From: Candidatus Krumholzibacteriia bacterium
GTDB lineage: Bacteria > Krumholzibacteriota > Krumholzibacteriia > Krumholzibacteriales > Krumholzibacteriaceae
Length of the DNA stretch: 64,000 nt
Direction: 5' to 3'
NCBI GenBank assembly: GCA_023131975.1
Contig: JAGLYV010000077.1
Span: forward strand, 1-64,000
The translations under genes were made by a program, and so were the position numbers. Below the pieces are notes generated by a model. It saw only the letters and a program-made list of their open reading frames with translations, was not told where the DNA came from and did no database searches. Below, in pieces: positions 2 to 63,757 of this stretch. Within the stretch, counting starts at the first letter, position 1; each line of letters begins with the position of its first letter.

Positions 2-454
2 CTCAAGGATAGAAAAGAAGATATCCCCCTCCTTGCCAATCATTTCGTCGAGAGATTCAACAGGGAATTCAAGAAGAATATAGGAAAGATCAGTCCCGAG
101 GTCGAACGTCAGCTCCAGGCCTATTCCTGGCCGGGTAATGTCAGGGAGCTCAAAAATGTCATAGAGAGGGCGATGCTTCTCGAGGCTGAAGACGAGTTGC
201 TTCCAGAGCATGTCCCCGTTGAACTGGGGCAGGCACAAGTCGAAGGGCGAGAAAATCATGGTGAGATAATGAGCGGTGTGTATCCGATGAGTATCAAGGA
301 GATGGAAAAGCTTCTTATCTGCAAGACCCTGGATGAGACTGACGGCAACAAATCCAAAGCCGCGCGTATACTCGGGATAAGCCGACAGACTCTCAGAGAA
401 AAGACAAAACTTTACACCACTGATGAGGATGATGTTCAGGTCAGTAGCGGCTGA
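2..454 (+). CDS. sigma-54-dependent transcriptional regulator (NtrC family), C-terminal part, truncated by window start
   Basis: Frame 2 is open from the window edge: LKDRKEDIPLLANHFVERFN...YSWPGNVRELKNVIERAMLL (AAA+ C-subdomain), then a Fis-type HTH (NKSKAARILGISRQTLREKTKLY). Confidence 0.9.
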   Translation, partial: LKDRKEDIPLLANHFVERFNREFKKNIGKISPEVERQLQAYSWPGNVRELKNVIERAMLLEAEDELLPEHVPVELGQAQVEGRENHGEIMSGVYPMSIKEMEKLLICKTLDETDGNKSKAARILGISRQTLREKTKLYTTDEDDVQVSSG

Positions 455-482
455 AAGCTTTCATCCAGCGCAGGTGATCTTT

Positions 483-1958
483 ATGAATACTGAGCTGTGG
501 TTGCTCGCTCAGGATGAGAAAATCGAAACGCTTGTCGAGGCCTTTGTCATAGGCGAACGGCTCAAACTAAGAAGATTCGCTAGTGTATCGGAAGTTCTGA
601 ACATGGATGAGCCCGACGGTGGGTTGATCTTCGTGATCGACGGTAGCGGGCAAAATATCAATTTCCGGCAGATCGTCAAGAGATTCAAAAAGAATTTTAT
701 CAATTTTGAAATCATTGTCTTTGATTCGAGCATAGACGGGCGCTCCATTGAGGATAATCCTGAAAATGAAGTCGATCTTCTCCTTCCCATTAGCATAGAT
801 CTCGAAGAATTCATGTTGAGAGCTTCACATCTGGTGAGTGTCCGAAGGGTGAAATCGAGTGCCGGTATAGTCGGAAGATCCGCCGCGTTGCGCGAAGTGA
901 TCGATACGATCATCAGGGCGGCTCCTACTGAAGTGTCGATCCTCATCGAGGGAGAAAGCGGCTCGGGCAAGGAACTTGTAGCGAAAGCGGTCCATCTCAG
1001 GAGTAACAGGAGATCGAAGGGCTTCGAAGCGGTCAATTGCGGAGCCATGGCTGAGGGGGTTCTGGAGAGCGAGTTGTTCGGTCACGAGAGAGGTTCATTT
1101 ACAGGAGCCGTTTCGAGAAGAATCGGCCTCTTCGAACGAGCAGATCGAGGCACACTATTTCTCGATGAAGTGGGGGAGATGAGCCTCACCATGCAGGTCA
1201 GGTTTCTCAGGGTCATCGAGACCGGGGAATATATGCGTGTGGGTGGAAATGAGAAGCTCATGACAGACGTCAGGATAATCGCTGCCACGAACAGGGAACT
1301 TGAGACAAGTGTCGCGGGTGGGGATTTCAGAAAAGACCTTTATTACAGGCTGAAAGTAGTCCAGATCAGAATACCGCCGCTGAGAGCCCGGCAGACCGAC
1401 ATTCCACTTTTAGTGAGACATTTTCTGATACAGTCCTCAGGAAGGCATAACAGAAGGGTTCTTTCGATCGACAAAGCGGCCATGACTCTTATGACGACCT
1501 ACGCGTGGCCCGGCAATGTGCGTGAACTCGCAAATGTGATAGACAATATTGTCGTGATGAGCACGGGGGATCGGATCTCAGTGTCGGATATAGAGACACG
1601 GCTGGTCGATGGTGCCGCTTCCCAGTCATTTCCCGATCTGCCGGTACATGTGGAATTGACGAGAGATCAGTTGGAGAGGGAGCTGATAATAAAATCACTT
1701 CTCTCTCTACACAATGATGTCCAGGAGATACTTAGTCTGGTCAGGCAGGAAGGATCGCCGTCCGGCGGCAAATGGCGCCGATGGGAAGAAGTTGTCGACG
1801 CGAATGAGGATAATCGTCCGGGGCTCGATGATATGGAGAAGGAAGCCATACGGGAAGCACTTTTGATAAACGGTGGAAACAGGAAAAAAGCGGCAAAGCA
1901 GCTTGGGCTCTCCGAAAGGACGCTGTATAGAAGGTTAAAAGGTTATGGATTGAGTTGA
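483..1958 (+). CDS. sigma-54-dependent transcriptional regulator (NtrC-like; degenerate receiver + AAA+ + Fis HTH)
   Basis: Walker A GESGSGKE, GSFTGA loop, DRGTLFLDEVGEM, YAWPGNVREL, C-terminal HTH NRKKAAKQLGLSERTLYRRLK. The ORF track starts at 423, but ATG 483 has an SD-like AGGTGAT upstream and avoids overlap with the previous gene. Confidence 0.9.
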   Translation: MNTELWLLAQDEKIETLVEAFVIGERLKLRRFASVSEVLNMDEPDGGLIFVIDGSGQNINFRQIVKRFKKNFINFEIIVFDSSIDGRSIEDNPENEVDLLLPISIDLEEFMLRASHLVSVRRVKSSAGIVGRSAALREVIDTIIRAAPTEVSILIEGESGSGKELVAKAVHLRSNRRSKGFEAVNCGAMAEGVLESELFGHERGSFTGAVSRRIGLFERADRGTLFLDEVGEMSLTMQVRFLRVIETGEYMRVGGNEKLMTDVRIIAATNRELETSVAGGDFRKDLYYRLKVVQIRIPPLRARQTDIPLLVRHFLIQSSGRHNRRVLSIDKAAMTLMTTYAWPGNVRELANVIDNIVVMSTGDRISVSDIETRLVDGAASQSFPDLPVHVELTRDQLERELIIKSLLSLHNDVQEILSLVRQEGSPSGGKWRRWEEVVDANEDNRPGLDDMEKEAIREALLINGGNRKKAAKQLGLSERTLYRRLKGYGLS

Positions 1959-14046: not shown

Positions 14047-15594
14047 ATGAGCGACTGGAGTGGTGAGAGTATTGTAATCCTTGATTTTGGTTCACAGTAC
14101 ACACAGTTGATAGCGAGGAAAATCAGAGCCCAGAAAGTGTTTTCGAACATTTTGCCGAATTCCGCGTCAATCGATGAGATAGTCGCTGAAAAACCTGCCG
14201 GGATCATTCTTTCGGGAAGCCCGGCGAGTGTCCTGGGCAAAAAGGCTCCGGGTCTGAAGGCCGACATTTTCTCCCTTGGCCTGCCTGTCCTCGGCGTCTG
14301 TTACGGTATGCAGCTGATCTCCATCGACAGGGGGGGGAACGTCGACAAGTCGGATCACAGGGAATTCGGCCATACGGTGATCGATGTGGAAAGCGATAAT
14401 CCTCTATTCCGCGGGACTCCCGCCAAGCAACGTGTCTGGATGAGCCATGGTGACAAGGTGAATTCTCTTCCTGCCGGGTTTGAGACCATAGCATCCACAG
14501 AGGGTTGTCCGATCGCCGCTATGGAGAACAGGAAAGAAAGAATATTCGGTCTCCAGTTCCATCCCGAGGTGTATCACACAGATCATGGAGAGGCTATTCT
14601 CAGGAATTTCATTATCGATATCTGTGGATGCGAACCGACATGGAGCTCTGCCAGTTTTGCCGACCGCGAGATAGAGAAGATAAGAGAAACGGTAGGAGAA
14701 TCCAGGGTACTCTGCGCGGTGAGCGGAGGTGTAGACAGTTCAGTGATGGCGGTTCTTGTCGACAAGGCCATCGGGAAACGACTCTGTCCCGTATTCGTCG
14801 ATAATGGACTGCTCCGGGACAGGGAAGCCGAGGAAGTGAAAGAACTGCTTTCGGAATACCTGACGACTGATCTCGTATTCGTGGACGCGGCTGATGAATT
14901 CCTGAAAAGGCTGGATGGAGTCACTGACGCGGAGAAGAAACGGAAGATCATTGGAAAGTGCTTTATAGATATATTTGAAGAGCAGAGTAGAATACATGGA
15001 CCTTTTGATTTTCTCGCGCAGGGCACTTTATACCCCGACATCATCGAGAGCCGCTCGACAGTCGGTCCGTCGGCAACGATAAAATCACATCATAATGTCG
15101 GTGGGTTGCCCGAAGATATGAAGTTTGATCTGGTGGAACCTCTTTCCCTGCTCTTCAAGGACGAAGTCAGGGAGGTAGGAATGTATCTCGGGCTTCCTGA
15201 ACGGCAGATCAAAAGACATCCGTTCCCTGGCCCCGGCCTTGCGGTGAGAGTGCCGGGGGCCATCAGAAGACCCGACCTGGACGTTCTGCGCCAGGTGGAC
15301 AGGATCTTCATAGACGGCCTGAAAAAAAGTGGACTTTACGATGAAGTGTGGCAGGCGTTCGCGGTACTGCTTCCGGTGAAAAGCGTGGGTGTGATGGGTG
15401 ATGAAAGGACGTATCAGAACGCGGTTGTCCTGCGAGCTGTCACGAGTACCGATGGGATGACGGCGGACTGGGCAAAGCTGCCATTCGATTTTCTACAGGA
15501 TATATCTAACGAGATAATAAACCGTGTCGACGGGGTTAATAGAGTCGTTTACGATATCAGCACAAAACCGCCAAGCACGATCGAGTGGGAGTGA
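14047..15594 (+). CDS. guaA: GMP synthase (glutamine-hydrolysing)
   Basis: IVILDFGSQYTQLIARKIR, GVCYGMQ, FHPEVYHTDHG, AVSGGVDSSVMAVL, FPGPGLAVRVPG. Confidence 0.97.
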   Translation: MSDWSGESIVILDFGSQYTQLIARKIRAQKVFSNILPNSASIDEIVAEKPAGIILSGSPASVLGKKAPGLKADIFSLGLPVLGVCYGMQLISIDRGGNVDKSDHREFGHTVIDVESDNPLFRGTPAKQRVWMSHGDKVNSLPAGFETIASTEGCPIAAMENRKERIFGLQFHPEVYHTDHGEAILRNFIIDICGCEPTWSSASFADREIEKIRETVGESRVLCAVSGGVDSSVMAVLVDKAIGKRLCPVFVDNGLLRDREAEEVKELLSEYLTTDLVFVDAADEFLKRLDGVTDAEKKRKIIGKCFIDIFEEQSRIHGPFDFLAQGTLYPDIIESRSTVGPSATIKSHHNVGGLPEDMKFDLVEPLSLLFKDEVREVGMYLGLPERQIKRHPFPGPGLAVRVPGAIRRPDLDVLRQVDRIFIDGLKKSGLYDEVWQAFAVLLPVKSVGVMGDERTYQNAVVLRAVTSTDGMTADWAKLPFDFLQDISNEIINRVDGVNRVVYDISTKPPSTIEWE

Positions 15595-15617
15595 CCGGTA
15601 GAATACGTTTTCTCTTC

Positions 15618-15632
15618 TGGCACCCAACTTGC
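15618..15632 (+). promoter_or_regulatory. candidate sigma-54 (-24/-12) promoter TGGCACCCAACTTGC
   Basis: TGGCAC-N5-TTGC with GG-N10-GC spacing, in the 89-bp gap between guaA and slt. Confidence 0.65.
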
Positions 15633-15683
15633 CCTTCCTGTTCCAGTTAATACCCTGATTGTTCGAGAGGTAATAGTACAGGT

Positions 15684-17879
15684 ATGTCAAAATTGTGTAA
15701 CCGTTTGTCAATATTAGTGTTATTAGCAATAACAATCCCTTCGTCGAGCCTGGCGATAGCACGGGACATCCATGTCTGGAGAGGAGAATACGCGAAAGCT
15801 GTGCCGGGAATGCATCATCTTCTCGAGCCGGAAGACGTGCCTTATCTGGTAATGGCTGGAGACCTGAAGCGGGCATCAGAGGCGCTTCGGGGCGATAATG
15901 ATGAGTTATTGAAAGCTTTTATTTCGTTCAGGGCTGATGAATGGGCTGCTGTCATCGATGATTCCATGGGAGCCAATACAAATCCATGGCTTGAAGCATA
16001 CCGGAAATTTATGAGGTCATATTCTTTTCTGAAGATGGATCTGCCGGACAGCGCGATATCCGTTTCGAAGATGTTTCTGGCGGATTCTTTGACTGCCGAC
16101 CGATCCCTGGCTGGCACTTTCATATGGAAGCGGGTAATGACTCTCTACGCCAGAGCTCTTCTCCGCGCCGGAAGGGTCGGTCCAGATATTCTGAAGACAG
16201 TGGATGTGAAAGATGTCGATGTCGATACTCTGGTCGATCTTGCGGACTGCCTTTTTTCGAATGGGTGGTACGACTCCGCTAACATTCTGATCCTGGAAGC
16301 TTCGAAAAAGAGACCTGGGCCGGATGCGAGGAAGAAGCTCAAAGAAATCCTTCTTTCAGAGGAATGGAAAGGCAGGGGAACCTCTCCTCCTGACCTGGCC
16401 AGGATTGCCCGCAATGCGATTGCCGCCGGGATGCCGGATGCTGGTGCCAGGGTAGTCGATGTGCTGGAAGAAGCAGGGCATGACAGGTGGGAACTGCATT
16501 ATCTAAAAGGCCTCATCCTGGAAAAAAGAGGTCGCAGGAGAGCCGCAAGAAAAAAATTCAAGGAGATATTCAACTCCGGAGCTCCGGTAAAGATCAAGAA
16601 AAATTCGCTTCTTCGGATCGCCTCGATCGATTATCGCCTCAACAGGATGGAAAGGTCGGCCGCTAATTACCGTATGTTCGGCGTCTACTATCCCAACGAC
16701 AGGAGAGCGGAGAACGCAATAGATATTTCAGCGAGGATCAATATATCACAAAGAAAATGGGATAAGGCAATCGATACCTGGGACCTGACAAGGCGAAAGG
16801 GTCCCGTTTCGGATGTCGGACGCAATTCGGTTATCAGCGAAGCAGCGCTGTGTATCAGGCTTGGTCGGCGCAGTCAGGCAAGAGGCATACTATATTCGTT
16901 ATTGCCTCATGTTGACGGAAGAAGCAGAGCCGGGGCGCTTTACTGGATGTACAGGGCCAGTGACGATCCTGATTCGTTGGAAAAATGGGAAAAAAGCCTG
17001 GGAGAGGTCGTGCCCTGGTCGGTCTATTCTCTCGCCATAAAAAACGAAGAGAACCTCAATGCCGGCGGGCTTGAAGGATTCATGACTGATGACATAAAGA
17101 GACTCGAGATCGAGGAACGGGCAGAATATGAAAAAATCAGATCGCGGATGATTCTTATGAGACAAGGCTGTGAATCTCTGCTGATGGATGCCTTCGACTA
17201 CCTTGTCGACAGGGGGCTTCTTGATGAAGCCTCCGAACTTGCTGCCATTGCGGGATCTGGTACCGGTAAGGACGGCTGGTTGCCCTGGTATATCTATTGC
17301 CGTTTCAGGGAAAAGGGGATGACCGGGGAGAGCCTGTCGATCCTGCACAGCGTCAGAAATTACCCGGGGGGTGAGTCTGTTCCGATCAGACTTTTGTATC
17401 CCATCGCATATTCCGGAATGATCGCGGAATATTCTAAAAAATATAATATCCCGCCGGAACTTGTCCTCAGTGTCATTCGCGAGGAAAGTTCTTTTGATGA
17501 CGATGTGGTTTCACCCGCGGGAGCTGTCGGGCTGATGCAGGTGATGCCTTCGACCGGGCGATGGATCGGAGAGAAGCTGAAGGTCAGGAATTTTGATAAG
17601 TCTTATTTGTCAGAACCCTGGTTTAATATTTCAGCAGGTACATGGTATCTGAGGTTTCTCCTCGACAGAAGCGATGAATCGATTGTGGGCGCCCTGGCCG
17701 CGTACAATGCTGGAAACAGAAAGATGGCTTCCTGGAGAAAAGAATATGATCCGTCAGTCGACCCCATGATGGCTATGGAACTGATAGGGATCAAAGAAAC
17801 AAGGGAATATGTGAGGCGTGTAATGTCGACGATGGCGATGTACAGGACCATATATATGGACAATGGGGTCGAGAGATGA
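15684..17879 (+). CDS. slt: soluble lytic murein transglycosylase (Slt70-like, helical/TPR repeats + SLT domain)
   Basis: C-terminal SLT: YNIPPELVLSVIREESSFDDDVVSPAGAVGLMQVMPSTGRWI...AAYNAGNRKMASW; long alpha-helical N-terminal part with signal peptide. Confidence 0.88.
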   Translation: MSKLCNRLSILVLLAITIPSSSLAIARDIHVWRGEYAKAVPGMHHLLEPEDVPYLVMAGDLKRASEALRGDNDELLKAFISFRADEWAAVIDDSMGANTNPWLEAYRKFMRSYSFLKMDLPDSAISVSKMFLADSLTADRSLAGTFIWKRVMTLYARALLRAGRVGPDILKTVDVKDVDVDTLVDLADCLFSNGWYDSANILILEASKKRPGPDARKKLKEILLSEEWKGRGTSPPDLARIARNAIAAGMPDAGARVVDVLEEAGHDRWELHYLKGLILEKRGRRRAARKKFKEIFNSGAPVKIKKNSLLRIASIDYRLNRMERSAANYRMFGVYYPNDRRAENAIDISARINISQRKWDKAIDTWDLTRRKGPVSDVGRNSVISEAALCIRLGRRSQARGILYSLLPHVDGRSRAGALYWMYRASDDPDSLEKWEKSLGEVVPWSVYSLAIKNEENLNAGGLEGFMTDDIKRLEIEERAEYEKIRSRMILMRQGCESLLMDAFDYLVDRGLLDEASELAAIAGSGTGKDGWLPWYIYCRFREKGMTGESLSILHSVRNYPGGESVPIRLLYPIAYSGMIAEYSKKYNIPPELVLSVIREESSFDDDVVSPAGAVGLMQVMPSTGRWIGEKLKVRNFDKSYLSEPWFNISAGTWYLRFLLDRSDESIVGALAAYNAGNRKMASWRKEYDPSVDPMMAMELIGIKETREYVRRVMSTMAMYRTIYMDNGVER

Positions 17880-19231
17880 GACTAAGGGAGATGCTGAGCC
17901 TGTTCGTACTCTCTGCGGTCGCCTTCCTGTTTTTTGTTTCAGGTGGAAGGACCGGTTCCACGCTGGTGGTTCCTCCATGGACTCACACTTTTGGCCTGCA
18001 CAGGGTCACTGAAAAGCAACTCAGATTTATGTCGGGATTCAAGACCGGGTCTCTGGATGCGCGGGCTGTATTCTGCACCAGCCTGAAAAGTTCCTGCAAT
18101 GCTGAGAACAACTATAAAGAAGACGACATCGCGATCTTCGGCATCAATCGGTATGATAACACTATTATTTACAATGCCGGAAAAGGAAGGGCGAAAGTGT
18201 TCGGAAAGGGGAACAATGTGGTTGAGTTCTCCGGCCCCGAAGACCTCACGGGTGATGATGAAGGAAATATCTTTGTGGCCGATACTGGAAATAACAGGAT
18301 AGTACATCTCAGAATGGTGGAAGGTGATCTTGTCTTCGTAAAGGAGTTGAAACTGTTCGATGACCTGGCCCTGGATTCTCCCCGTGGTATTGATTTCTCA
18401 GGTGGCTTGTTATTCATCGCTGATACTGGTAACGACAGAATCGTCGTTTCCCATCCTGGCGGAAAGACAGAATCGATCCTCAGGCCAGAGGCAGGTGGAG
18501 CAAGTCTCGACTCACCGGTATCTGTCAGCGTCACATCTGATAGTGATGAATGGGTTTATTACACGGATTGCTTCGTTGCGGTAGTGGACAGTTCTGGACA
18601 TAGATTGTGGAAGGTCGGAAGGGATACTGGACACACCCGGGTTATCAGGTATTCCGATGTGTTCGGCAGGAACGGCGCGTTCAACGACCTTGATATGGAT
18701 TACTACAGTAATGTCTATGTCACCGACAGGTCTTCCTGCTGCATACACAAGTTTGATCGGAATCTCAACCATATCATTACTCTTGGCAGCGGCAGGCAAG
18801 GTGGTGTCGACTTTGATGAGGCGATGGATATCTCGATCAACAGACGCTTCGGGCAAGTCGTCGTCCTGGAAAAAAGAGGATTGAGATATTTCTGGGTCGG
18901 GACCGATCTGCTGGATTTAGACGCATCTGGTCTTTTTTACGAACCCAATGAGGGAAAATGTCGAGTCGACGTATCGTTTCTCATCACAGAACATTCGGTC
19001 GTCGATATCTTCCTCGAGGATATGAATGGCGATGGAAGGTTGTATTTTGCAAGGGATCTCCTCCTTCCGGGAGGTCGATTCAACAAGAGGATCGAAGTAA
19101 AAGGCGTCGTTCCCGGTACGATCGAGAACTGCAGGCCCAGATTGGTTGCAGTCGCGAAACCTACTTATTCTTCAATCGATTATATCGCTGTGACAAAAAA
19201 ATCACCCAGCCTTACCCCGACCATCAGATAA
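17876..19231 (+). CDS. secreted NHL-repeat/six-bladed beta-propeller protein
   Basis: Signal peptide; repeated blades such as GNIFVADTGNNRIVHLRM, GLLFIADTGNDRIVV, NVYVTDRSSCCIHKFD. Start overlaps the slt stop (ATGA). Confidence 0.75.
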   Translation: MRLREMLSLFVLSAVAFLFFVSGGRTGSTLVVPPWTHTFGLHRVTEKQLRFMSGFKTGSLDARAVFCTSLKSSCNAENNYKEDDIAIFGINRYDNTIIYNAGKGRAKVFGKGNNVVEFSGPEDLTGDDEGNIFVADTGNNRIVHLRMVEGDLVFVKELKLFDDLALDSPRGIDFSGGLLFIADTGNDRIVVSHPGGKTESILRPEAGGASLDSPVSVSVTSDSDEWVYYTDCFVAVVDSSGHRLWKVGRDTGHTRVIRYSDVFGRNGAFNDLDMDYYSNVYVTDRSSCCIHKFDRNLNHIITLGSGRQGGVDFDEAMDISINRRFGQVVVLEKRGLRYFWVGTDLLDLDASGLFYEPNEGKCRVDVSFLITEHSVVDIFLEDMNGDGRLYFARDLLLPGGRFNKRIEVKGVVPGTIENCRPRLVAVAKPTYSSIDYIAVTKKSPSLTPTIR

Positions 19232-19264: not shown

Positions 19265-19280
19265 TGGCCTGCCATTTGCA
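19265..19280 (+). promoter_or_regulatory. candidate sigma-54 (-24/-12) promoter TGGCCTGCCATTTGCA
   Basis: TGGC-N7-TTGCA with GG-N10-GC spacing, in the gap between the NHL and TPR genes. Confidence 0.6.
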
Positions 19281-19347: not shown

Positions 19348-20289
19348 ATGTTCATCAATAGATTTCTTGGATTTTTGCCTAAAAGCAACCTGAAAAAAGC
19401 TCTGAGCTTCCTGAACAAGGGAGAGTACAAGAGATCATGCAGGGAGTTCGAAGCATACCTCGCCCATAAAGCCGGTGTGATCGGAGGCAAGGACCAGGAA
19501 ATGATCCGGATGTACATGGTAGAGTCATTTATCGAGTATGCCCGGGAACTGGAAAACGCAGAAAAGTATGATGAATCGGCGGCAGAGCTCGAGAAAGCGG
19601 TCGAGCTCCAGCCTCATTATGCTGATGTACATTTTACCCTTGGTCGCATGTATGGTTATTCAGACAAAACGGTCAATGCAAGGGAAAGCATCAAGAGAGC
19701 CCTGGCCATTAATCCCGACTACTTCAGAGCAAGGATCATGCTTGCGAAAAGTTACCGTGATGACAAAAAACATGACAGGTGTGCCGAAGAAATTGAGAGA
19801 GCCATGTCAGCTGCTCCTAATTTCTTTATTGAGCAGGTCCGGGAGTTGTCGAGGGAGATCAGGATCGAACCGGATGGCAAAAGAGCGGATGATCTGTTCG
19901 AAAGACTTCTGGAAGAAAGGCCTTCGTCCTCGCAGGTAAGCAAACAGATCGCCCTGGAAGCCGTACAGAACGGGGATTATGAATACGCGATAACTGAACT
20001 GAAGAAATCTGTGTCGATGAACCCGAATTATCCCGACATGCACAATCTCCTTGGAATAGCATACGCGAATATGGGAATGACCGATGACGCGGTAATGGAA
20101 TTTGAGATTGCCCTGAAGGTCAATCCTGAATACCTGAAGGCCAGGATCAACATGGCTCTTACTCTTTATGAAAAAGGTTCTTCTGAAGCGGCGATGACAC
20201 ACTTGAAAGTCATCTTGAATCTCGACCCAGAGAACGAACTGGCCAATAATCTTCTCAAGGAACTCGAACCGGTCCTGAACAAGAGGTAG
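19348..20289 (+). CDS. TPR-repeat protein
   Basis: Tandem TPR units (AAELEKAVELQPHYADVHFTLGRMYG; AITELKKSVSMNPNYPDMHNLLGIAYANMG; AVMEFEIALKVNPEYLKARINMALTLYEKG). ORF opens at 19318, but ATG 19348 has SD GGAAAGGG. Confidence 0.85.
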   Translation: MFINRFLGFLPKSNLKKALSFLNKGEYKRSCREFEAYLAHKAGVIGGKDQEMIRMYMVESFIEYARELENAEKYDESAAELEKAVELQPHYADVHFTLGRMYGYSDKTVNARESIKRALAINPDYFRARIMLAKSYRDDKKHDRCAEEIERAMSAAPNFFIEQVRELSREIRIEPDGKRADDLFERLLEERPSSSQVSKQIALEAVQNGDYEYAITELKKSVSMNPNYPDMHNLLGIAYANMGMTDDAVMEFEIALKVNPEYLKARINMALTLYEKGSSEAAMTHLKVILNLDPENELANNLLKELEPVLNKR

Positions 20290-20295
20290 ATTGAA

Positions 20296-20985
20296 GTGAA
20301 TACCGATTATTACGCACTCCTGGAAGCATGGCCGACTTCATCCAAGGATGATATAAAGAAGAACTATTTTCGCCTCGCAAAGCTGTATCATCCCGATGTC
20401 GCCGGTGACAAACCTGAGGTCAGAGAGCGATTCAAGCAGATCAACGAAGCGTTCAGCACACTTGACGATCCGGAGAAAAGGCATCAATATAACGAATCGC
20501 TGAGAAAAAGCAAGCAGGGTTCACGGGATGCCCAGTCATTGCAGGAAAACGATCAGAGAACGGCTATCCTGGCTTTTCAGCAGGCAAAGGAAGCAATGAG
20601 GGACGGATTCTACGATAAGGCTGTGCTCTTGCTCAAGTCAGCCATAAAGTACAATTCCTCCAATCCTACATACCAGAGTTGGTATGGATTCTGTCTGGCT
20701 ATGACGAACAAGAACCTTCACGAGGCCAGGGACGCCTGCAGGATGGCTATTCAGAGCGAGTTCTATAATGCCGACTATCACGCGAATCTGGGTTTTGTCT
20801 ATTTTAAGGCAGGATTGAAGGCCCAGTCGATAAAACACTTCAGGGAAGCCCTTAAATGGGATTCGAAAAACAGTATAGCAAATAAATTTCTGGATCGGGT
20901 CGACAGGGGCAGGGGGAAGCCTGTAGGTCCGATTGACAGGATGATCTCTGCGGCAAAGCATATCTTTACGTCGAAAAGTAGCTAA
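20296..20985 (+). CDS. J-domain (DnaJ-like) protein with C-terminal TPRs
   Basis: DYYALLEAWPTSSKDDIKKNYFRLAKLYHPDVAGD (HPD motif), then TPR-like helices. GTG start. Confidence 0.88.
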   Translation: MNTDYYALLEAWPTSSKDDIKKNYFRLAKLYHPDVAGDKPEVRERFKQINEAFSTLDDPEKRHQYNESLRKSKQGSRDAQSLQENDQRTAILAFQQAKEAMRDGFYDKAVLLLKSAIKYNSSNPTYQSWYGFCLAMTNKNLHEARDACRMAIQSEFYNADYHANLGFVYFKAGLKAQSIKHFREALKWDSKNSIANKFLDRVDRGRGKPVGPIDRMISAAKHIFTSKSS

Positions 20986-21061: not shown

Positions 21062-22975
21062 GTGGTCGTGATGAACAAGACGTCTTTTCTGTGTATCGGC
21101 AACAAGGGCAAGGAAAACTCGCTCGTCTATCAGGAAATCCCCAGAAAAACCAGAGGTGAAGAGTTTTTTGTCTTCTTTTCTCCTTCGGATCCCGCGTTTG
21201 AACCTGTGGCCCGCAAGTTGTTCCGACATATTATTTCTCTTTCCAGACTCGGGCATCCGTCAAATTTCTTTTCAAGGGTGATGGATATCTTTAAGGATGT
21301 CGCCAATTTCCATGATCCTGATGGTACTTTTCTTTCGGATTCTATGATTCTAGTGATGATCAAGAGAGAAAGAGATGTTTATCTGCTGCGGAACAGCGGA
21401 GTAGAAGCTGTCCACAGGGATATCGACCAGTCTGTCGAGACTCCACTGGATGCCTACCCGGGACTTTACAGATACGATCTGGATCGGAACTCAGGCCAGG
21501 TCGAGCTTTTTGAGAGCAAAACAGAAGATTTTTTCACATTGCAGAGATTTGAGATGGCGCCCGGCAGGCATACTATTGTCTTCGTACCTTCGAAAGATTT
21601 TGTTGAAAGACATAGGGAGGCCCTGCTGAACAGCGTATTCTTTCCCTCGTTCGAGATGAAGGATGATGGGATCGAGACGGGGATCGATCTGACATTTCCG
21701 GCAATGAGATGGAATATACCAACGATGTATGACAAGCCGGTTACCGGCGTGAGGAGAAGGGGAATGATAAGAAAATGGATTCCGTATTCGGCCGGCGCGG
21801 TTGCTGCCATAGTCGCCCTGATATTTATTTTTAAACCGTTTGGAGGCGGGGCTGACAGTCCCATTGAAGGAGATGTCCTTCTTACAGCCGAAGACGGGAT
21901 TGTTGAAACAAGTGAGACAGAAGCTGCTGAATACCGTGGCTCCGAAGAAACGATCGAAGTGAAAAGCCCCGTGCCAACCGACGTTTCTGATAAAGTGACG
22001 GTAAGCATGGTTGATGGCTGGAAAAAGAAATTCGATGCACCGGTAACCTCGTCCCCGGTCTTGACAGGGGATCAGGTCATTTTCGGATGCCGTGATGGAA
22101 ATCTATATTCCTTCAGCCGGGATGGGTCACTTCTGTGGAAATACACAGGGAAGCAGGGGATCGGGGCTTCTCCCTTTGTGTCTGAAGGAAGAGCAGTATG
22201 CGCGGATTACGAGGGAAATGTATTTTGCCTTGACGCCGTGTCGGGCAGCTTGATCTGGAACAACGGGACCGGTGACAAGATCGTCAGTTCACCCGTCATT
22301 GGAAATGATATGGTTATTTCCGGGACGACAAAGGGAACACTCTACGCATTTTCCCTGAAAGATGGAGTTCGCCTCTGGGCTAAAAACATAGGTACGGGAA
22401 TCTGGGCGACCAGCACCATAGGGGATGATTTTGTCATTGCGGCAACCACCGATGGATCACTGGTAAAACTGAGTCATTCAGGAAAGGTACTCTGGAGGGT
22501 TCAGCCCGGCGGGGAAATATATTCGACCCCTCTCGTCCTGAAAGAAAAAGACCTTGTCATTTTCGGTACTGGAGACCGGTTTATCTATGCATATTCTCTC
22601 TCGGCCGGCAATCTCATGTGGAGGTTTTCGGCAGGTAGCGACATCAGAAGCGCTCCGGTGACAAACGGAAGTGAGATATTTGTAGGGTCTGAAGACGGGA
22701 ATCTTTTTGCGTTGACGTTCGCAGGGACTCTTGTGTGGAAGAGAGATGTGGGGGGAGCGGTGAGATCGAGACCCCTTGTGGTCGAAGATGCTGTATTTGT
22801 CACTACTTACGGCTCCAGGCTGAAGGCGTTCAAGTCGAAAGATGGAGAGCCTGTGGTTGAATTCAGGGTTGAATCACCCGTCTATTCATCGCCGGCGACT
22901 GATGGAAGATTGATATTTTTCGGGTCAAACCAGGGGTATTTTCATGCCGCGCGTCTGAAACGCGGTATCAGTTAG
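21062..22975 (+). CDS. membrane protein: N-terminal PP2C-like domain (tentative), one TM helix, C-terminal PQQ/BamB-like beta-propeller
   Basis: Single hydrophobic helix IPYSAGAVAAIVALIFIF, then repeated GxLYAFSLKDGxxLW / SSPVxxGDxV blades. N-terminal domain: DSMILVMIKRERDVYLLRNSGVEAVHRD. Confidence 0.72.
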   Translation: MVVMNKTSFLCIGNKGKENSLVYQEIPRKTRGEEFFVFFSPSDPAFEPVARKLFRHIISLSRLGHPSNFFSRVMDIFKDVANFHDPDGTFLSDSMILVMIKRERDVYLLRNSGVEAVHRDIDQSVETPLDAYPGLYRYDLDRNSGQVELFESKTEDFFTLQRFEMAPGRHTIVFVPSKDFVERHREALLNSVFFPSFEMKDDGIETGIDLTFPAMRWNIPTMYDKPVTGVRRRGMIRKWIPYSAGAVAAIVALIFIFKPFGGGADSPIEGDVLLTAEDGIVETSETEAAEYRGSEETIEVKSPVPTDVSDKVTVSMVDGWKKKFDAPVTSSPVLTGDQVIFGCRDGNLYSFSRDGSLLWKYTGKQGIGASPFVSEGRAVCADYEGNVFCLDAVSGSLIWNNGTGDKIVSSPVIGNDMVISGTTKGTLYAFSLKDGVRLWAKNIGTGIWATSTIGDDFVIAATTDGSLVKLSHSGKVLWRVQPGGEIYSTPLVLKEKDLVIFGTGDRFIYAYSLSAGNLMWRFSAGSDIRSAPVTNGSEIFVGSEDGNLFALTFAGTLVWKRDVGGAVRSRPLVVEDAVFVTTYGSRLKAFKSKDGEPVVEFRVESPVYSSPATDGRLIFFGSNQGYFHAARLKRGIS

Positions 22976-33119: not shown

Positions 33120-34055
33120 ATGAAATTAAGTAAAAAAGATTTTCTATCAATCAGGGATTTCAGCAAAGAAGAACTAAGGACTATCCTCGACTTGAGCAGA
33201 AAACAGAAGCCTCTGGCCAAGGCGTTCAAACTTGAGCCTTCCCATCCGGGACGTGTGCTTGCCTGTATCTTTCACAAGCCGAGTCTAAGGACGAGGATCA
33301 GTTTTGAAATATCTATCAGACAGCTGGGCGGTTCCAGCCTCTATATAACCGACAAAGAGATCGGTATCGGCAACCGGGAGGCTCCCAAGGATGTCGGTGC
33401 AGTACTCTCAAGATATGTCGATGGAATAATGATAAGGACTTTCGATCAGGAAATGATAGAAACGCTTGCCGCGAATGCTACCGTTCCAGTGATAAACGGG
33501 CTGACAGACCTGCTGCACCCATGTCAGGTAATGGGTGACATCATGACGATAGAAGAGCACCTGGAAAGTATCGAAGGAAAGAAAGTCGTTTTTGTCGGTG
33601 ACGGCAACAATGTTGCCAGAAGCTGGTTGAACGCTGCTTCAAGATTCCCCTTCAAGTTTGTCTTGAACTCTCCGAGCGGTTATCAGCTCGAAGATTCATA
33701 TGTTGAGGAAGTCAAGAAAGACGAAAACCTTGATTATGAGTGGATCGAGGATCCTGCCGAAGCTGTCAGGGATGCCGACGTGATCTATTCTGATGTGTGG
33801 GCCAGCATGGGACAGGAATCAGAAAAGGAAAAAAGGCTTAAGATCTTCCGTCCCTATCAGATAAACGACAAATTGATGGAACTCGCCGGAAGGGACGCGA
33901 TATTCATGCATTGCCTTCCCGCTCACAGAGGTGAGGAAGTCAGCGATTCCGTCATCGACAGTAAAAGATCTGTCGTTTATGACGAGGCAGAGAACAGGCT
34001 TCACATACAAAGAGCCATTATCGCACTGTTGATGCCGACTGACAGAGAACTGTAG
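33120..34055 (+). CDS. argF: ornithine carbamoyltransferase
   Basis: FHKPSLRTRISFEISIRQLGG; LTDLLHPCQVMGDIMTI; DVWASMGQE; MHCLPAHRGEEVSD. Confidence 0.92.
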   Translation: MKLSKKDFLSIRDFSKEELRTILDLSRKQKPLAKAFKLEPSHPGRVLACIFHKPSLRTRISFEISIRQLGGSSLYITDKEIGIGNREAPKDVGAVLSRYVDGIMIRTFDQEMIETLAANATVPVINGLTDLLHPCQVMGDIMTIEEHLESIEGKKVVFVGDGNNVARSWLNAASRFPFKFVLNSPSGYQLEDSYVEEVKKDENLDYEWIEDPAEAVRDADVIYSDVWASMGQESEKEKRLKIFRPYQINDKLMELAGRDAIFMHCLPAHRGEEVSDSVIDSKRSVVYDEAENRLHIQRAIIALLMPTDREL

Positions 34056-61419: not shown

Positions 61420-61435
61420 TGGCTTGAGTCTTGCT
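61420..61435 (+). promoter_or_regulatory. candidate sigma-54 (-24/-12) promoter TGGCTTGAGTCTTGCT
   Basis: TGGC-N7-TTGCT with GG-N10-GC spacing, in the 64-bp gap after mutS. Confidence 0.62.
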
Positions 61436-61471: not shown

Positions 61472-63757
61472 GTGAAGTCGGTGAAGAATATTGCCATTCT
61501 TGGTGGTGGTGAAAAAGAACTCAATATCCTGAGTGAGTTTCATCGTAATCCTGTTTACCACATAATTGGTATATATGACAGGGATCCAAGGGCAGTAGGG
61601 CTTGAGATAGCTGAGATCATAGGAATTCCTGTTTTTACAGACAGTTCTTTCGTCGATTCTTTCAGAAAAGCTGATTATATCATTGTCACCGACGAGCGGC
61701 GTCGCTACGAAGAAGAGGTCATTCTCCTGAAGAAGGAGAATCTCAGGATCATCAATCCATCAGAAGCCGTGAATCACCTTGTAGCTGATACACCTAAAAT
61801 TGACAAGCAGCCCCCTCCGTGGCCAGCGCACCTCGAAATGGCCTTGAAATATATAGAACGAATAACCGATCGGGAAAGGCTTCTCCGGTGGTTGCTCGAG
61901 ATCTCCGTCAGAGCCGTCCAGGCATCTTCTGGATCGATCATGCTTTCCTCAGAAGAAACCGCCGAACTATATATCGGTTACGCAACTGGACTGAGCGCGG
62001 AAGTGGTAAGTAACACAAGGCAGAAGATAGGAGAGGGGATTGCGGGAAAGGTCGCTGAAGAAAAGAGTATACGGCTTATAACTAATATCGTGGACAACCA
62101 GTTGTATGCTCATGGCCGTGAAAGAAAAGATATTCAGAGCGCTATTTCGGCGCCTCTTGTCTTCGAAGATAAACTGATCGGTGTATTGAACATCTCCACC
62201 GACAGGAACGAACGGATACTTACAAACGTCGACATCGAGACCATAACCCTTCTCGCCGAAAAGATATCTCCAATCCTTGATCAGCACCTTCGAATAGATA
62301 CGACAGGAATAAGGGAGAAGGAATTCGAGATAAGGAATTTCCTTGAATCTCTTTTTAAGTCCGAAGCCGGGTTCCATCACAAGTTCTCGGGACTCTGCAG
62401 GAAACTTTGCGAGACTCTGAATGCTGACACGGTCACCATTTACACGGCCACCGACGAGGGAGACTGGCTGATACTGGGGGGAAGTGACCAATATGAACAG
62501 TTCGCCGAAACTGCTCCCCGGATACATTGCCTCAAAGGCAGCCTGGCAAGAGCGTATCTTACAGGTAAAGAAATTCTTATGACTGAGGCGACGCATGACC
62601 CCAATCTCCAGATCAAGGAGAGCGGGGATTCGATTACGTCGATCTATCTTCCGCTGGTCCATAATGCGCCACTTGGTGTCCTGGTCATGGAATTTTCTGC
62701 GCTTGAATCACTCGAGCAATTTTTGAAGCTCAAAGATACATTGAGATTTCAGGTCGGTTTTTTCGCATATGCTCAACTCAGGGAACTTAAACAGCAGAGA
62801 AAGATGAAAAGATATGAGGAGCTTTCAGCTCTCACCCCCTTTCTCATGGGCATGGAGAACGCTGGCGCGAGGCTGAAGCATATTCCTGGTATTGTTGCTT
62901 CTGTGATCAATGCTTCGATGGGGAGTTTTTACTTTAAAAGTGATTCAGGTGAAGAATTATCATATTTCGGATTCCCGGAAAACAAGCAGGACAGGGAGAC
63001 AGAGGTACGATTTGATAATGAACTTAGAGAACGTGCCATAAAAGAGCTGAAACCTGAATGCACCAGCTTTCTAACCGGTGATGTCGGTACCTTCGACAAG
63101 ATGCCAACGTACACATCAGTGATATCGTATCCTTTTTCCATTACTGGTGATTTTACGGCAGTTTTTAACGGTTACAGCAAAACACCGGAGACTCCTCTTG
63201 ACTCGACAGTGTTCGGGAAGCAGGAACTTGGCCTTCTGGAGAAGGTCTGTGATATTCTTACACCGATACTGAAGAAGAAAAAAACTCTTTCCGGCAAGGA
63301 TGAGCCTTCCAGCTTTAATGAACTTCTGAAATCAAATCAGAAGATCTTCCTTGAAAGGATCAGGGAAGAGATCGAACGAGCGGAGAGATATCATCATGGC
63401 TTTACCGTCACCCTTTTCAAGGTTGTGGGATTGAATGAATACTACAGGGTGTCCTCACATCACGCGCTTGATCTTATAAACACCTTGAGTAAAAGTGTCA
63501 GAAGCTCCGCGAGAAAAACTGACTATTTTTCATGGATAGAGACCGACATCTTCGGGATCATCTCATTGGAAAGTTTTCAGAGGATAGGTGACCTCGAGAA
63601 AAGGATATTAGGACTTATCAGCGGGATCCTTGAAGAAAAGGGATTGTTTGAGCGTGAAAGATTCAATCCAATCAGCGCGTTTTCTCTTTATCCCGGCAAC
63701 TCCGAGACCGCCTCTGACCTGATCAGTACCGCCATGGCCAGTTTGAAAGGCGATTGA
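61472..63757 (+). CDS. multidomain signalling protein: N-terminal Rossmann-like domain, GAF domains, C-terminal degenerate GGDEF-like domain
   Basis: KNIAILGGGEKELNILSEF...IIGIYDRDPRAVGLEIAEIIGIPVFTD; GAF motif KIGEGIAGKVAEEKSIRLITNI...QSAISAPLVFEDKLIGVLNIS; C-terminal FLERIREEIERAERYHHGFTVTLFKVVGLNEYYR...RKTDYFSWIETDIFGIISL. GTG start with SD GAGAGG; the ORF track start lies inside mutS. Confidence 0.75.
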   Translation: MKSVKNIAILGGGEKELNILSEFHRNPVYHIIGIYDRDPRAVGLEIAEIIGIPVFTDSSFVDSFRKADYIIVTDERRRYEEEVILLKKENLRIINPSEAVNHLVADTPKIDKQPPPWPAHLEMALKYIERITDRERLLRWLLEISVRAVQASSGSIMLSSEETAELYIGYATGLSAEVVSNTRQKIGEGIAGKVAEEKSIRLITNIVDNQLYAHGRERKDIQSAISAPLVFEDKLIGVLNISTDRNERILTNVDIETITLLAEKISPILDQHLRIDTTGIREKEFEIRNFLESLFKSEAGFHHKFSGLCRKLCETLNADTVTIYTATDEGDWLILGGSDQYEQFAETAPRIHCLKGSLARAYLTGKEILMTEATHDPNLQIKESGDSITSIYLPLVHNAPLGVLVMEFSALESLEQFLKLKDTLRFQVGFFAYAQLRELKQQRKMKRYEELSALTPFLMGMENAGARLKHIPGIVASVINASMGSFYFKSDSGEELSYFGFPENKQDRETEVRFDNELRERAIKELKPECTSFLTGDVGTFDKMPTYTSVISYPFSITGDFTAVFNGYSKTPETPLDSTVFGKQELGLLEKVCDILTPILKKKKTLSGKDEPSSFNELLKSNQKIFLERIREEIERAERYHHGFTVTLFKVVGLNEYYRVSSHHALDLINTLSKSVRSSARKTDYFSWIETDIFGIISLESFQRIGDLEKRILGLISGILEEKGLFERERFNPISAFSLYPGNSETASDLISTAMASLKGD

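Follow-up and report, generated by a model that had tools for sequence, protein, structure and literature searches.

A conserved predicted sigma-54 promoter upstream of slt in a Candidatus Krumholzibacteriia genome

Sigma-54 regulons control the bacterial exterior, including exopolysaccharide, lipoprotein, LPS and peptidoglycan (Francke et al. 2011, PMC3162934). The sigma-54 consensus described for Desulfovibrio vulgaris is tGGcacg / tTGCt (PMC4641369). RpoN control of a PEP-CTERM gene was shown experimentally in Aquincola, where it belongs to the PrsK-PrsR axis (PMC9850573). Within a limited collection of the literature, we found no sigma-54 work on the lineage considered here.

The window analyzed is a stretch of 64,000 nucleotides. 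It contains TGGCACCCAACTTGC at positions 15618 to 15632 of the forward strand, between guaA and slt. The site is very probably a genuine sigma-54 (RpoN) -24/-12 promoter, predicted to serve slt and the overlapping NHL gene. It is a well-supported further example of a known promoter type, and its mechanism is not new.

The site between guaA and slt

The features of the junction are as follows.

14047-15594 (+), guaA, the gene upstream of the slt promoter; assigned by conserved sequence, with the same junction across the family
15618-15632 (+), predicted slt sigma-54 promoter; TGGCAC -24 element at 15618-15623, TTGC -12 element at 15629-15632
15684-17879 (+), slt, lytic transglycosylase with a TPR-like N-terminal part (Pfam SLT, PF01464)
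17876-19231 (+), NHL-repeat protein (Pfam NHL, PF01436); overlaps slt

The site has the form TGGCAC-N5-TTGC with the correct GG-N10-GC spacing. It is the single occurrence of this full form in the window. The guaA stop is 23 bp upstream, and the slt ATG at 15684 is 51 bp downstream. The sequence-only reading had reported a sigma-54-like motif with GG-N10-GC spacing here and put it 52 bp from the slt start codon. The sequence is exactly where it was placed, but the count is 51 bases.

The catalytic domain of Slt scores 101.1 bits against PF01464 (Pfam cut-off, 21.3). Its best NCBIfam match is a flagellar assembly lytic transglycosylase, under the cut-off of that model, and the alignment search otherwise returned generic SLT domains. 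The region around E600 and S602 is invariant in the family alignment. The NHL repeat scores 47.1 bits against PF01436 (cut-off, 20), and a search using only the NHL protein brought up no named relatives. Both proteins have N-termini that look signal-peptide-like by eye. The two genes overlap by the ATGA at 17876-17879. From this overlap, the NHL gene is predicted to be co-transcribed with slt. The window contained no Rfam matches.

The GG-N10-GC arrangement is kept at 13 of 15 guaA-slt junctions in the family, this genome counted. The strict motif is present at 11 of the 15; G008 and G017 have CGGC for TGGC with GG-N10-GC intact. The site is absent from the remaining two family genomes, G012 and G014, and in G014 slt abuts guaA. 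The evidence for conservation is these counts of genomes with and without the site. Because sites entered the aligned table on the strength of the motif, the columns at 2.0 bits partly reflect that choice. The distance from the guaA stop to the site varies from 9 to 32 bp, the flanks hold about 0.4 bits per column, and the Slt proteins are 28 to 36% identical outside the genus. The conservation is therefore hardly leftover similarity. It is conservation at the family level; evidence for the site did not extend to the three slt genes of the f2 family (same order) or to those at class level.

No terminator was found within 15400-15900, which spans the guaA-slt junction. The genes are also co-directional with small gaps, and slt of G014 has no site of its own where it abuts guaA. 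These points would fit transcription of slt mainly by read-through from the upstream purine/guaA genes, with the sigma-54 promoter secondary or conditional. We consider this rather unlikely, since both elements are conserved close to the start codon, which points to a working promoter. Read-through from guaA can coexist with a sigma-54 promoter.

In the slt sites a C always follows TTGC, which gives GGCA-N7-TGCC. The block could thus be read as a palindromic operator for another regulator, not a sigma-54 promoter. The symmetry stops there, however: of 11 sites, a single one pairs the T at position 1 with an A at position 17, and we rejected the operator reading because of this. The sites before the TPR and GAF genes (below) have TGGC-N7-TTGC without the palindrome, and no other promoter, sigma-70-like or otherwise, was visible within 15400-15900. 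An operator is very improbable here.

RpoN, activators and sites across the genome

The window contains five copies of the core motif, TGGC-N7-TTGC. Dinucleotide shuffles contain 1.2 +/- 1.1 copies, and 1 of 100 shuffles contained at least 5. Three of the five matches are intergenic (15618, 19265 and 61420), the number that had been read from the sequence. All three are on the forward strand and shortly upstream of start codons. The other two matches were rejected as promoters and are taken as coincidences. The match at 15228-15242 (+) is coding and falls on conserved PGPGL codons of guaA. The match at 33604-33618 (-) falls inside 33120-34055, a coding sequence of the opposite strand. Counts from the window carry little weight by themselves; it is the comparisons between genomes and the genome-wide tests that lift the site above chance.

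The genome encodes rpoN (E 1.8e-64), which was found in 54 of 54 relatives. It has 22 matches to AAA+ enhancer-binding protein domains, about 18 of them strong, and many contain a GAFTGA-type loop. PrsR, the PEP-CTERM response regulator, is among these activators (TIGR02915, 570.6 bits; cut-off, 502.6). One activator is encoded in the window.

423-1958 (+), sigma-54 activator with an AAA+ domain, GSFTGA loop and Fis-type HTH; candidate regulator of the window promoters

Genome-wide counts come from pattern searches and the stretches around the matches. TGGCAC-N5-TTGC was found 16 times in the genome and the reversed pattern 3 times. TGGCAY-N5-TTGC was found 29 times (reversed, 6). Summed over 20 family genomes, the TGGCAY form was found 494 times and its reverse 129 times. 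Intergenic calls were made with a simple script that finds genes by codon usage learned from the window. By these calls, 22 of the 29 TGGCAY sites lie between genes; the non-coding background is 4% in the window and 15% over all stretches sampled. The binomial chance of 22 of 29 at a 15% background is about 6e-13 by hand calculation. For 19 of the 29 sites the identical 15-mer recurs in the second genome of the genus; random spacers give 0.6. Other -24 forms are mostly within genes, with 1 of 17 TGGCC sites and 8 of 33 TGGCG/T sites intergenic. The sole intergenic TGGCC site is the one at 19265.

For one reversed control pattern, 5 of 12 sites lay between genes. Four of these five lie in a repeated hairpin, ACCGTAGC...GCTACGGT, so that control is noisier than it appears. 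Met through this control, the repeated hairpin TACCGTAGC...GCTACGGTA is intergenic in this genome (L298, L302, L306 and L308). It had no Rfam match.

A 15-mer with 8 to 10 fixed bases will turn up somewhere, and the reversed control predicts 3 to 6 TGGCAC/Y matches genome-wide. In principle the slt motif could be such a match, intergenic but without function. Enrichment between genes speaks against this, as does the site itself, which 13 of 15 junctions keep at varying distance from guaA among diverged flanks; a chance match is hardly credible. The sequence-only reading, which had proposed sigma-54 control of slt and the NHL gene, is supported by rpoN, by the junctions and by the intergenic enrichment; none of the three refuting outcomes that it had named was observed. 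Its claim was if anything understated, as both other intergenic sites of the window are deeply conserved too.

The genome-wide set would comprise roughly 25 to 30 sigma-54 promoters, mostly serving the cell envelope. Some of the other intergenic TGGCAY sites precede pilus genes, for a type IV pilin, PilM and an MshEN-domain ATPase of the pilus/type II kind. Envelope genes behind such sites encode polysaccharide export, LptC and several lipoproteins (lipobox by eye). Others encode an FHA protein, a small-GTPase-like protein with an Arf-family match, Hsp20 and a GAF-GGDEF protein. Two PEP-CTERM protein genes lie behind TGGCAT-N5-TTGC sites, and a TonB-C protein gene lies behind a TGGCG site. The PrsR-type PEP-CTERM response regulator (L076, G000:C116:4704-5204) shares a contig with a PEP-CTERM gene that has a TGGCAT-N5-TTGC site.

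The promoters at 19265 and 61420

The most interesting result is not the slt site. It is the class-wide predicted promoter at 19265, which has TGGCC and precedes an apparently unstudied TPR/DnaJ/propeller unit.

19265-19279 (+), second predicted sigma-54 promoter, TGGCCTGCCATTTGC; precedes the TPR/DnaJ/propeller genes
19348-20289 (+), TPR protein; probable start ATGTTCATC
20296-20985 (+), DnaJ-domain TPR protein
21062-22975 (+), protein with a C-terminal PQQ/BamB-like propeller

The strict motif precedes the TPR gene in 24 of 24 order-level orthologues. In a different family of the class, the motif was present in each of the six genomes, further upstream, where it reads TGGCCTTATTATTGC or nearly so. 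The likelier start of the TPR gene is 19348, not 19318, as its orthologues open with ATGTT.

Counting order and class together, the site before this unit is conserved in 30 of 30 orthologues checked; its -24 element is TGGCC, not TGGCA. In one class-level genus, two genomes (G035 and G042; L201 and L206) have a further motif, CGGCAC-N5-TTGC, lying some 115 bp downstream of the TPR-gene promoter. These may be tandem sigma-54 promoters.

61420-61434 (+), third predicted sigma-54 promoter, TGGCTTGAGTCTTGC; the preceding gene ends 12 bp upstream
61472-63757 (+), GAF-domain protein with a GTG start, behind the third promoter

Upstream DNA was available for 14 orthologues of the GAF gene, and the strict motif precedes the gene in every one. 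Its upstream site is the conserved TGGCTYRACTYTTGC. Each of the three promoters has its own conserved -24 variant and spacer: TGGCAYTYAACTTGCC for slt, TGGCCTGtgActTTGC-like for the TPR gene and the GAF form just given. The intergenic room upstream of the 15618, 19265 and 61420 promoters is 23, 33 and 12 bp, respectively.

Proposed working and comparison with known sigma-54 systems

Sigma-54 RNA polymerase waits on its promoter as a closed complex, which an activator opens. Transcription starts about 12 bp after the GC. An upstream activator binding site is usual but not universal. At the slt promoter, sigma-54 RNA polymerase would bind 15618-15632 as a closed complex, and one of the AAA+ activators of the genome would open it. 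Transcription would then start at about 15644, giving a leader of roughly 40 nt, and run through slt and the overlapping NHL gene. Transcription from this promoter, the start site near 15644 and the inclusion of the NHL gene are inferred from the sequence.

The 23-bp gap between the guaA stop and the promoter is too short to hold an enhancer of the usual kind. A scan for synonymous conservation showed no clear peak that would mark an activator site embedded in the 3' end of guaA. The slt activator site may therefore be elsewhere, be poorly conserved or not be needed. A bolder reading is a class-wide core sigma-54 circuit. Its promoter-specific cores would be read with an activator that can do without a conventional gap enhancer, and the opening of peptidoglycan would be coordinated with an envelope machine made of the TPR, DnaJ and propeller proteins. 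We hold this to be unlikely.

For individual sigma-54 promoters, the analysis provides clean comparative evidence in a lineage with mostly fragmented genomes here. It also provides a list of 25 to 30 candidate sigma-54 targets. In it, peptidoglycan hydrolysis and the TPR/DnaJ/propeller unit share a sigma factor with pili and exopolysaccharide, which suggests possible roles for the proteins of the unit.

The slt site matches the TGGCAC and TTGC of the Desulfovibrio vulgaris consensus (PMC4641369), whereas the -24 elements are TGGCC at 19265 and TGGCT at 61420. Like the Aquincola PrsK-PrsR system (PMC9850573), this genome has PrsR, and two PEP-CTERM genes have TGGCAT-N5-TTGC; that axis concerns PEP-CTERM genes, however, and no link between slt and PrsR was seen. 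An exported lytic transglycosylase fits the theme of sigma-54 control of the exterior. As in PMC3162934, the targets here include pili, polysaccharide export, LptC, lipoproteins and a peptidoglycan hydrolase. That paper concerns other lineages and emphasizes precursor transport and biosynthesis, whereas the conserved targets here are a peptidoglycan hydrolase with its NHL protein, plus the TPR/DnaJ/propeller unit.
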